Origin: Prochlorococcus sp. AG-355-A18
Lineage (GTDB): Bacteria; Cyanobacteriota; Cyanobacteriia; PCC-6307; Cyanobiaceae
DNA: 47,864 nucleotides
Direction of reading: 5' to 3'
Assembly (NCBI GenBank): GCA_003280985.1
Contig: QCDH01000009.1
Span: forward strand, 1 to 47,864
Translations under genes and position numbers: made by a program
In this document: positions 6,816 through 35,129 of the stretch, piece by piece
How the letters are laid out: the number at the start of each line of letters is the position of its first letter
Position numbering within the stretch: position 1 is the first letter of the stretch
Notes under the pieces: model-generated
Seen by the model: only the letters and a program-made list of their open reading frames with translations
What the model was told of the DNA's origin: nothing
The model's database searches: none

Positions 6816-6870
6816 GGGGGAAACCCCATACTCCTCACACACTAAATCGCCCGATTAATCGGGCTTTTTT
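6816..6870 (+). ncRNA. yfr1: Yfr1 small regulatory RNA
   Basis: A 55-nt RNA with the classical Yfr1 layout: a 5' hairpin (GGGG-GAAA-CCCC), an unpaired stretch holding the invariant 11-mer ACTCCTCACAC (6830-6840), and a terminator hairpin GCCCGATTAATCGGGC followed by six Ts. The guaB-trxA location is the known conserved position in Prochlorococcus and marine Synechococcus. Yfr1 is an abundant trans-acting sRNA whose exposed 11-mer pairs with target mRNAs. The 3' hairpin also serves as terminator. Confidence 0.95.
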
Positions 6871-31773: not shown

Positions 31774-32544
31774 ATGACTACTTTAGTCGCTGAAAATTTA
31801 ACCTTTGCATACGCAAAAAAAAGTAAGCCAGTTTTGAATAAGGTATCAGTTGAGATTAAACCTGGAACTCTAACAGCGTTAGTTGGCCCAAATGGCGCAG
31901 GTAAATCAACTCTTTTGAGAATTTTGCAAGGACAAAATACTCCAGATAAAGGCGAAATAAAAATTGATGGTGAAAATTTATATAGATCTAGAGCTCTTGT
32001 GGCACTTATGCCTCAAAGAAGTTCTATGAATTGGAAGTTCCCCATTACAGTTGAAAAGTTGGTATCTCTTGGTCAAATAAAGTATTCAAAATCAAGAAGT
32101 AATAACCCATTTCAAATTAAGACTCTTCTAGCATATCCTAATTCTTGGATAAATAAATGTTGTGAATTAGAGGCGACAATGCAGAGAGTAGGCATTGCAA
32201 GTTTGGCGAATAGAAGACTCGATTCTCTTTCAGGAGGACAGCAGCAAAGAGCTCTATTAGCAAAAACTCTTATGTCCCCGGCAAAAATATTTCTTTTAGA
32301 TGAACCTTGTGCAGCTTTGGACCCACCTGCAAAGGAGGATTTTCTTAAAATTGTTCGTCAACTTGCCGATGCCGGACTTTCTTTGCTCGTAAGTAGCCAT
32401 GATTGGGGCGATTCTTTAAATAACTATGATCAAGTAATCGTTCTTGATAAAAGTGTTTTGGCAGTTGGTAGTCCTGACCAAATACAAGATAAATTAGAGT
32501 CAATAAACATTAGCTCTATAAACGAAAATAATTTCTGTGATTAG
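31774..32544 (+). CDS. znuC: Zinc ABC transporter ATP-binding protein ZnuC
   Basis: 256-aa ABC ATPase with Walker A GPNGAGKS (38-45), signature LSGGQQQRALLAKTL, Walker B IFLLDEPCAALDPP and switch His in LVSSHDWGD. It energises zinc uptake with ZnuA and the ZnuB permease. The convergent zur gene lies between znuC and znuB, so the permease is in a separate transcript or read through. Confidence 0.92.
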   Translation: MTTLVAENLTFAYAKKSKPVLNKVSVEIKPGTLTALVGPNGAGKSTLLRILQGQNTPDKGEIKIDGENLYRSRALVALMPQRSSMNWKFPITVEKLVSLGQIKYSKSRSNNPFQIKTLLAYPNSWINKCCELEATMQRVGIASLANRRLDSLSGGQQQRALLAKTLMSPAKIFLLDEPCAALDPPAKEDFLKIVRQLADAGLSLLVSSHDWGDSLNNYDQVIVLDKSVLAVGSPDQIQDKLESINISSINENNFCD

Positions 32545-32557
32545 AGAATGTTCCTTT

Positions 32558-32992
32558 TTAATTCTGAGCTTGATAACAGTTTTGGCAAAGCCCGAAATAC
32601 TCGAGGGTATGAAACAACAATTGGAATTTCTTTGGATTTGTTTTGGGTGTATGAATATCTTTTACCGGGCATCCTTCCATTTTTGATGTCTCACCACATT
32701 GAACACAGGTCAAATGATGAATATCTCTGTCTACGGGAGTGTAAAGAACCTCTCCAGTTGGGAGATGTCTAGAACGTATTAAGCCATGCTTTATCAGAAC
32801 TTGAAGATTCCTGTAAACAGTCGTCAGTCCCATAGCCTTTCCGCTTTCTATCAATTGTCTATGCAACTCTTGACCAGTCAATTCATCCTCACATTTATTA
32901 AGTTCTTCAAGAAGTTGTTCTTGTCTTTTGGTAATGTCAGACTTAGTTACCATTGTTTCCGAAATCTTTTTTTGTCCCGTATTTTTGATCAT
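32558..32992 (-). CDS. zur: Fur-family regulator, probably Zur
   Basis: 144-aa Fur-family repressor. The N-terminal winged helix contains ELHRQLIESGKAMGLTTVYRNLQVL (DNA-recognition helix AMGLTTVYRNL). The C-terminal dimer and metal domain has HHLTCVQCG and GLCQNC, the two CxxC pairs of the structural zinc site. Position inside the znu cluster makes zinc the likely effector. It is divergent from znuB with only 17 bp between start codons. Confidence 0.87.
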   Translation of the reverse strand: MIKNTGQKKISETMVTKSDITKRQEQLLEELNKCEDELTGQELHRQLIESGKAMGLTTVYRNLQVLIKHGLIRSRHLPTGEVLYTPVDRDIHHLTCVQCGETSKMEGCPVKDIHTPKTNPKKFQLLFHTLEYFGLCQNCYQAQN

Positions 32993-33007
32993 ACCGAATC
33001 ATTCGAA
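32993..33007. promoter_or_regulatory. Palindrome between zur and znuB starts
   Basis: The 17-bp gap between the two divergent start codons holds CGAATCATTCG, a perfect 5-1-5 inverted repeat with the same AAT-C-ATT centre as the Zur box. It could be an autoregulatory operator covering both starts, but the outer bases do not match the consensus. Confidence 0.35.
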
Positions 33008-33009
33008 TA

Positions 33010-33795
33010 ATGTCTTTTATTAATAACAACTGGTGGCTGGTTCCATTAATAATAACTATATTCTCCGGGATTTTATGCCCAGCTATGGGAACTGTATTAA
33101 TCACTCATAAGAGATTATTACAAGTTAATTTAATCTCTCATTGTGTGTTGCCTGGACTTGCTCTCGCATTAGCGCTTGGAATTCACCCCTCAATTGGTGG
33201 TGTTATAAGTGGTCTTCTGGGCTCAGTAATTGCGGAAAGTTTAACTAATAGAAAAAGTGAAAATTATGAAGCAGTTATGAATACTATTCTCGCTGGAATG
33301 CTTGGATTTGGGGTCCTTATAATCCCTTTACTCGGAATAAGGATTGATTTGGAGGCAGTATTATTTGGCGATTTATTGACTGCAAATTTTGGAGATTTAC
33401 TTAGAACAATAATTGCTTTTTTAGTTTTTATACTTTTAATGACTTTTGGATATGAAAAGGTTGTTTATGTTGGATTAGATCCAGAAGGTGCATCCGCGAG
33501 TGGTATAAACGTTTCTTTATTAAATCTTGCTTTGAGTTTTACAACGGCATTAGTAATTGTTAGTTCAATGTCAGCAGTGGGAGTAATTCTTGTAATTGCA
33601 CTTCTTTCTACGCCAACTTTGTTAGGGCTAAATAAGGCTCATAGTTTAAGAATTGCAATGATGAGGTCTTCATTTTTTGGATTATGTATCTCACTTCTTG
33701 GATTTATTCTCTCTATAGTCTTTAATCTTTCGCCTGGGCCTGCAATTAGCGTTATTTGTGTTGCGTCCCTTTTAATTCCTAAACTTCGTAAATAA
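33010..33795 (+). CDS. znuB: Zinc ABC transporter permease ZnuB
   Basis: 261-aa ABC-3 family permease with about eight hydrophobic spans. Family landmarks are MGTVLITHKRLLQVNLISHCVLPGLALALALG and the late VGVILVIALLSTPT and SPGPAISVICVA segments. It forms the membrane channel for ZnuA-delivered zinc. The next gene, on the other strand, ends immediately after its stop codon. Confidence 0.92.
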   Translation: MSFINNNWWLVPLIITIFSGILCPAMGTVLITHKRLLQVNLISHCVLPGLALALALGIHPSIGGVISGLLGSVIAESLTNRKSENYEAVMNTILAGMLGFGVLIIPLLGIRIDLEAVLFGDLLTANFGDLLRTIIAFLVFILLMTFGYEKVVYVGLDPEGASASGINVSLLNLALSFTTALVIVSSMSAVGVILVIALLSTPTLLGLNKAHSLRIAMMRSSFFGLCISLLGFILSIVFNLSPGPAISVICVASLLIPKLRK

Positions 33796-34025: not shown

Positions 34026-34274
34026 TTAGTTATTCTGAAGTTTCTCTACTACAGATTCTTTCTCAATCTTAGCTACATCCTGTAATCCATTAGCATCAAA
34101 CCAAGGAGCGTTTTCCCAATTAAATCCTTCCCCAAAAGTATTATCGGGAGCAGCTACGTACCAGTGACATGACGAATCGGGAACATCTACAGCACATTTT
34201 GACCAGTCAGCTTCCCACTGTGGAACTTGTACCCACATTACAGATGCTAATAAAAAAGAAAAAATAAAATTCAT
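34026..34274 (-). CDS. Small exported Trp-rich hypothetical protein
   Basis: 82-aa protein with a short hydrophobic N-terminus (MNFIFSFLLASVMWVQVP) that may be a signal peptide, then a Trp-rich acidic body (WEADWSKCAVDVPDSSCHWYVAAPD) with two Cys. No family recognised. It starts 10 bp after the stop of the preceding tiny ORF. Confidence 0.55.
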   Translation of the reverse strand: MNFIFSFLLASVMWVQVPQWEADWSKCAVDVPDSSCHWYVAAPDNTFGEGFNWENAPWFDANGLQDVAKIEKESVVEKLQNN

Positions 34275-34427: not shown

Positions 34428-34503
34428 GACTCAAGCTGTCTATGTGGAACATATTTAAGACACTTTATAGATTTTTTGAAGTGAATTTATACTTAATTTT
34501 GTC

Positions 34504-34638
34504 TTACTTTTGTGTAGGTAAGTATTTTTCGGGATTATTTTCAATATAAGTAAGCGAATATTTGACAATACCGACTATTACTGAAAAAAGAGCAATTGCC
34601 GAAATAAGAAAAATGATTTTTTTGTAAATGCTTTTCAT
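34504..34638 (-). CDS. Small single-span membrane protein (44 aa)
   Basis: ATG at 34638 opens 44 codons: a basic start MKSIYKKI, a membrane span of about 18 residues (IFLISAIALFSVIVGIV) and a polar end ENNPEKYLPTQK. The basic start and clean span favour a genuine small membrane protein. No function is known. Confidence 0.5.
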   Translation of the reverse strand: MKSIYKKIIFLISAIALFSVIVGIVKYSLTYIENNPEKYLPTQK

Positions 34639-34725
34639 GAATTTTTTATGTTTTTGATTATTTTTTTCATCAACGCCCAATTTTTCTGAAAGACTTAAAT
34701 AATTAGTAATTTATACTGTAGCCTT

Positions 34726-34825
34726 TAAAATAACCTACGGAGTAGATTAAATACATCAGAAACTCCTCACACACTTTTTTCTGATAACTTTAAAAGTACT
34801 CGAACGCAATGTTTGAGTACTTTTT
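34726..34825 (+). ncRNA. Putative Yfr1-like small RNA carrying the Yfr1 11-mer
   Basis: The exact 11-mer ACTCCTCACAC that defines Yfr1 recurs at 34762-34772 in a spacer. It is preceded by a small hairpin (CTAC-GGA-GTAG, 34735-34745), lies in a loop closed by ATCAG/CTGAT, and is followed by a strong terminator (34792-34825). This repeats the Yfr1 order: 5' hairpin, 11-mer, terminator. Possible -10 boxes are TATACT (34712) and TAAAAT (34726), so the 5' end is uncertain. GGAGT at 34739-34743 could pair with ACTCC and hide the motif. Confidence 0.65.
34792..34825 (+). terminator. Strong intrinsic terminator of the Yfr1-like RNA
   Basis: Stem AAAAGTACTC/GAGTACTTTT of 10 bp continues through a G-T pair into AAC/GTT around the loop GCAAT, and merges with a T run. 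It is one of the strongest terminators in the window, yet no plus-strand gene precedes it, which supports a small RNA upstream. Confidence 0.85.
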
Positions 34826-34903
34826 GTATTTTTTGCCATGTGACAGTTAAGATAGAGGTCTATTAGGCATTACATATTTTGAAATTAAGTGTGATATTTA
34901 ATT

Positions 34904-35000
34904 TGTGTGTAGGAGGAATTGATTTATTTCAGTGGAAACAAGGAAACACTTGATATAAGTCAATTTTAAAAAGATCTCTCTCTGAGGGGTCTTTTTTTTT
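34904..35000 (+). ncRNA. Putative Yfr2-family small RNA
   Basis: About 97 nt ending in a terminator. The core CAGTGGAAACAAGGAAACACT (about 34930-34950) forms a short AGTG/CACT stem exposing a purine loop with two GGAAAC copies, which I recognise as the signature of the Yfr2-5/Yfr10 family. The 5' region GTGTGTAGGAGG could pair with the Yfr1 11-mer (ten pairs, one bulge). A likely -10 is TGATAT at 34892. The 5' end is an estimate. Confidence 0.72.
34972..35000 (+). terminator. Terminator of the Yfr2-like RNA
   Basis: Eight-pair stem AGATCTCT/AGGGGTCT (with G-U pairs) and loop CTCTG, followed by nine or more Ts. Confidence 0.8.
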
Positions 35001-35129
35001 GGATTTTTAGCAATACATATTAAATTCTGAATATAAAAACATATATGCTTTCTTCCAAAATAATTAGATACGTCATTATAAATTAATAATTTAATTCGTT
35101 AGATTATGGTTTGTTAAATACTTCTGTAA

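Follow-up and report, generated by a model that had tools for sequence, protein, structure and literature searches.

The second copy of the Yfr1 11-mer in the window (the whole stretch of 47,864 nucleotides which was analysed) belongs to a small RNA which is already known: it is Yfr18, a member of the Yfr10 family, described in MED4 in 2008 on Northern and 5'RACE evidence (PMC2518516). The initial annotation had seen rightly that a second RNA bears the Yfr1 seed, as both the Rfam match (RF02362) and the published Yfr18 show, but its suggestion that this RNA might be new does not hold: Yfr18 was published with the same 11-mer (PMC2518516) and its family is in Rfam. This means that the second 11-mer of the window is now settled as part of a described sRNA.

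We searched both strands of the window for the 11-mer ACTCCTCACAC. It is found exactly at 6830-6840 (+), in Yfr1 (RF01116, 6814-6867, strand +, 58.0 bits for a gathering score of 38), and, as had been claimed, exactly once more, at 34762-34772 (+), the two loci being 27.9 kb apart. There is no further exact copy on either strand, and the 11-mer is absent from all of 100 dinucleotide shuffles of the window. The assembly (1.18 Mb, 70% complete) holds these two exact copies only. The second one lies in a spacer free of plus-strand genes, again as claimed: between 33795 and 35130 there is no plus-strand open reading frame of at least 50 aa. Upstream of this locus, at 31774-33792, genes for an ABC transporter ATPase, a Fur-family regulator (minus strand) and an ABC-3 family permease form what looks like a metal-uptake cluster.

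The RNA itself was identified in the following way. The covariance model of the Yfr10 family, RF02362, matches positions 34755-34836 (+) over its full length (1-78 of 78) with 59.9 bits, for a gathering score of 43. The motif ACUCCUCACAC lies within a stem loop made of 8 bp and 15 loop nucleotides, the first A of the 11-mer forming part of the final base pair of that stem. On the same strand, 66 bases after the end of this match, a second RNA begins at 34903-34970 (RF01701, Cyano-1, 79.9 bits for a gathering score of 41). Cyano-1 is taken here, from sequence and position, as the Yfr2 family; this fits the RF01701 match of MED4 at 346826-346893, which directly follows yfr10, the published place of Yfr2. 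We took one of the 151 genomes of the genus, G015, as MED4, since its RF02362 match at 346661-346738 falls exactly on the published coordinates of yfr10. Around 34.8 kb, colinear blastn matches join the window to the yfr18-yfr5 region of this genome (G015:C1:968000-976500), with a DNA identity of 78% over the 3.15 kb flanking the RNAs and of 76% over the 219 bp spanning them, and there are additional colinear matches. The three 11-mers of G015, the same number as published for MED4 (PMC2518516), are at 346668-346678, at 972304-972314 (minus), inside the published Yfr18 interval, and at 1000771-1000781 (minus), inside Yfr1. The Yfr18 of MED4 is given as complement(972284..972388) and listed between Yfr5 and PMED4_11681 (PMC2518516). 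Hence, from the colinearity with MED4 and from the position of the 11-mer inside the published Yfr18, we concluded that the RNA of the window is the ortholog of Yfr18, and we call its neighbor the Yfr5-type RNA.

The likeness to the plan of Yfr1, which had been stressed initially, is only partly right. In Yfr1 the motif is unpaired, in the linker between two hairpins; here it is inside a hairpin loop. The small upstream hairpin, said to be as in Yfr1, is just a 4-bp CUAC/GUAG stem of the predicted fold and is missing from the MED4 sequence. That the flanking sequences are unrelated to Yfr1 agrees with the Rfam search, the one comparison made on this point: RF01116 has no match at 34500-35100 for E values up to 1. 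The loop was said to be closed by ATCAG/CTGAT, and these letters do sit inside the 8-bp stem AUCAGAAA/UUUCUGAU (34755-34762 with 34778-34785, the whole seed hairpin being 34755-34785, strand +). The hairpin at 34792-34824 (+), followed by a T-rich tail, deserves its place among the strongest terminators: its 15 base pairs are the largest number among the 26 terminator-like sites of the window (11 + 12 + 3), even though only 4 of these pairs are G-C.

The 76 nucleotides at 34755-34830 are predicted to fold with -22.0 kcal/mol (mean of the shuffled sequences -7.75, z -6.3) into the 8-bp stem, the 15-nt seed loop and a 14-bp terminator stem. The seed hairpin and the terminator stem are retained in the fold of the longer stretch 34724-34830, and over 100 loci the mean probability that the 11-mer is unpaired is 0.89 for the longer form and 0.92 for the shorter one. 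Each of the eight pairs of the seed stem forms in 96 to 99 of the 99 distinct sequences. The changes in this stem are almost all one-sided, so that the stem shows conservation rather than covariation, and the support from covariation is weak.

Taken together, we hold it very probable that this RNA, the ortholog of the MED4 Yfr18 directly upstream of Yfr5, offers its seed in a loop, pairs with mRNAs and is titrated by Yfr2-type RNAs. The 8-bp stem with the 11-mer in an open loop, the terminator and the complementary start of the Yfr5-type RNA are all conserved across the loci examined. The stem would present the 11-mer in the open loop and the intrinsic terminator would end the RNA. The published part of this picture comes from the other copies. 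The 11-mer is common to Yfr1, Yfr10 and Yfr18, and Yfr10, Yfr12 and Yfr18 adjoin Yfr2, Yfr4 and Yfr5, for which mutual pairing was suggested (PMC2518516). In the 2019 study (PMC6778093), where the Yfr10 motif sits in a stem-borne loop and where Yfr10 homologs are placed upstream of Yfr2 homologs in high-light Prochlorococcus, Yfr2 enriched Yfr1 and Yfr10; Yfr10 enriched Yfr3, Yfr4 and Yfr5, and Yfr2 itself only slightly. Yfr10 also enriched 253 mRNAs, and its in vitro binding to ppa was lost upon a change of UCCU; its targets are overlapping with but distinct from those of Yfr1 (PMC6778093). As Yfr10 is the copy tested there and the main text of that study does not contain the name Yfr18, the function is carried over from Yfr10. 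By analogy with the published work on Yfr10, Yfr1 and Yfr2, the UCCU of the loop would pair with target mRNAs, as it does with ppa in Yfr10, and Yfr18 would itself be titrated by Yfr5 and other Yfr2-type RNAs. The Yfr18-Yfr5 pair could then set the level of free Yfr1-type seed in the cell. The word "competitor" used initially fits this network, in which the targets of Yfr1 and Yfr10 are partly common and both RNAs are titrated by Yfr2 (PMC6778093).

Yfr18 might also be a decoy paralogue which chiefly soaks up Yfr2-type RNAs, thereby freeing Yfr1, rather than binding mRNAs. Its gene adjoins that of a Yfr2-type RNA, and the titration of Yfr1 and Yfr10 against Yfr2 is central to the published model (PMC6778093). 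Moreover, the predicted duplex with Yfr5 is slightly stronger for Yfr18 (-19.4 kcal/mol) than for Yfr1 (-16.9), that of Yfr18 with Yfr1 being at -7.4. The value of -19.4 is strong, although the 2000 sequences obtained by mononucleotide shuffling of the Yfr5 start (mean -9.5) reach a minimum of -20.3. Yfr10, however, has the same loop sequence at the seed, and it is the RNA for which the 253 enriched mRNAs and the ppa binding were reported. We consider a pure decoy rather unlikely, and keep the reading in which Yfr18 pairs with mRNAs and is itself titrated.

The ends of the transcript bear on another proposal. A -10-like block at 34702-34731 has a mean column conservation of about 0.95 over the 100 loci and contains TATACT (34712-34717, +), a candidate yfr18 promoter element which reads TAATAC in MED4. 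Anywhere within 75 nt upstream, TATACT is found in 87 of the 99 distinct sequences and TAATAC in 13. Judged from this conserved block, the start of Yfr18 would be near 34724. The published 5' end of MED4 (972388) precedes the 11-mer by 74 nt and would map near 34688, further upstream than the block points to. The published MED4 interval also stops before the terminator seen here, and the two lengths given for Yfr18, 29 and 76 nt (PMC2518516), sum to that interval. The mature ends drawn for Yfr18 from either source are thus provisional. The initial annotation had proposed that GGAGT (34739-34743, +) hides ACTCC; in a switch of this kind, the leader of a full-length transcript would mask the seed until processing frees it. 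The two published lengths hint at some processing (PMC2518516) and GGAGT is present in 70 of the 99 distinct sequences. The pairing has, however, a predicted probability of 0.002 in the window sequence and exceeds 0.5 in 4 of 71 GGAGT loci; GGAGT is absent from MED4 and has several single changes elsewhere while ACTCC is unchanged. On folding and on conservation we rejected the mask, and such a switch is in our opinion very improbable.

We measured the conservation of the locus without selecting on the motif, taking as an anchor the gene at 34029-34274 (minus), which encodes a small protein. Its 104 strong matches define 104 loci in 103 genomes, the window and MED4 included, and 100 of them reach the spacer; L118, L142, L149 and L150, which are cut by contig ends, are outside the 100, and in two of the four genomes so affected, G088 and G143, the RNA is on another contig (L084 and L067), with the exact 11-mer, and is outside the count as well. 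Of the 100 readable spacers, 96 carry the 11-mer without any change and 4 with a single one. Spacers of relatives in which the 11-mer varies freely had been named initially as speaking against a second RNA; the contrary is observed. A chance 11-mer in an untranscribed spacer has nothing for it except the shortness of the motif and can be dismissed, given its absence from the 100 shuffles, the 96 exact copies, the Rfam match and the transcript published for MED4 (PMC2518516).

The start of the Yfr5-type RNA, the likely antagonist, reads GTGTGTAGGAG (34905-34915, +) and is complementary to the seed except for one bulge. It is kept in 99 of 99 readable cases: a script counted it in all 92 loci whose Yfr2 loop string is exact, and of the 8 loci left, which were read by eye, 7 have it, the eighth being cut by a contig end. 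Column conservation over the 100 loci peaks at 34762-34771 (rounded mean 1.0) and in the Yfr5 loop at 34932-34951 (0.98-0.99); several blocks near 0.95 come next, the one at 34702-34731 among them. The terminator of the Yfr5-type RNA is at 34968-34996 (+). Between the two RNAs lies ATGTGACAGTTAAG (34838-34851), with a conservation of 0.94 for 34842-34851; a near copy stands between the RNAs of MED4 yfr10-yfr2 and of a second pair of the source genome. A regulator of the GntR type has been reported for yfr2 promoters, and this sequence could be its site; the letters of the CGRE1 motif were not found in our literature search. The 82-aa protein of the anchor gene has no Pfam match. Among its 104 strong matches, 45 are 100% identical, that of the window included, and a second relative with 72% identity is encoded elsewhere in the source genome (G000:C3:55161-55394).

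For comparison, we took the 57 RF01701 loci other than Yfr18 among the matches listed, of which 56 are readable (L203 is without loop match), and looked for the 11-mer before the loop. Among these matches listed, it is exact at 23 of the 56 loci, where it precedes the loop by about 95-270 nt, has one change at 12 and two or more at 21. As far as the sequences tell, the Yfr18 copy is better kept than this mixed set (96/100 against 23/56 among the matches listed), a modest addition to be read as a comparison and not as a rate, for the 23/56 mixes non-orthologous loci and seeds which are changed with seeds which are absent (some of these loci, L212 of MED4 for example, are without any Yfr10-type hairpin). 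The contrast agrees with the 2008 table, in which Yfr18 is listed in five further strains and Yfr10 and Yfr12 in two each (PMC2518516). In the source genome, the second Yfr10-type/Yfr2-type tandem (L036, G000:C11:29881-30109, minus) has a seed changed to ACTCTTCACAC. From these two observations, we tentatively suggest, with slightly more doubt than belief, that Yfr18 and Yfr5, not Yfr10 and Yfr2, may be the selectively maintained pair of seed and antagonist in this group of Prochlorococcus. If this is true, the functional results obtained with the Yfr10 of MED4 would describe Yfr18 in most strains. For specialists, it is useful that the place of Yfr18 is fixed by its neighbor genes and its seed almost unchanged, while the other Yfr2-type loci examined often have an altered seed or none; pull-downs or knock-downs in such strains should therefore aim at Yfr18. 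In this second tandem ACTCTTCACAC goes with GTGTGAAGGAG, and these apparently compensatory changes had suggested insulated cognate pairs; the idea was dropped on inspection, since GTGTGAAGGAG elsewhere also accompanies the unchanged ACTCCTCACAC, so that no co-variation was seen.

In the 151 genomes, many of which are incomplete and which were searched with strict filters, RF02362 is found in 123 (49 of the 51 which are at least 90% complete), RF01701 in 131, RF01116 in 118, the 11-mer in 138 and the 13-mer ACTCCTCACACAC in 133. A rule by which no genome would be without an intact Yfr10-type copy did not hold when these 51 genomes were read by hand: in G025, G055, G090 and G140 the neighbor gene is represented only by its weaker relative, and three of these genomes (G025, G090 and G140) contain a single 11-mer. 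The incomplete genomes G031 and G124 have six RF02362 matches each, with six and four RF01701 matches respectively among the matches listed, an apparent expansion of tandem pairs. Phage-borne copies were also sought and rejected: none of the 47 viral-contig stretches containing AAACTCCTCACACAC has a flanking hairpin by a five-base stem test, and neither of the two viral stretches with the Yfr2 loop string has an Rfam match at gathering scores. We took these matches as chance ones, in a viral collection which possibly lacks records of the source genome or of close ones.

Finally, the locus can be set beside the known systems. The Yfr18 of MED4 (PMC2518516) has the same 11-mer at the same site beside a Yfr5-type RNA, with colinear neighbors; at 76-78% DNA identity it differs from the window by the lack of GGAGT and of the CUAC/GUAG mini-hairpin and by the loop of its terminator. 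Yfr10 (RF02362) likewise has its seed in a hairpin loop, a terminator and a position upstream of a Yfr2-type gene, but at another locus and with another terminator sequence. Yfr1 (RF01116) has the identical 11-mer, with an AC extension in both RNAs, but its motif is single-stranded between two hairpins, at a different locus. The Yfr2 family (RF01701) provides the adjacent partner, a separate RNA whose own start is complementary to the seed.
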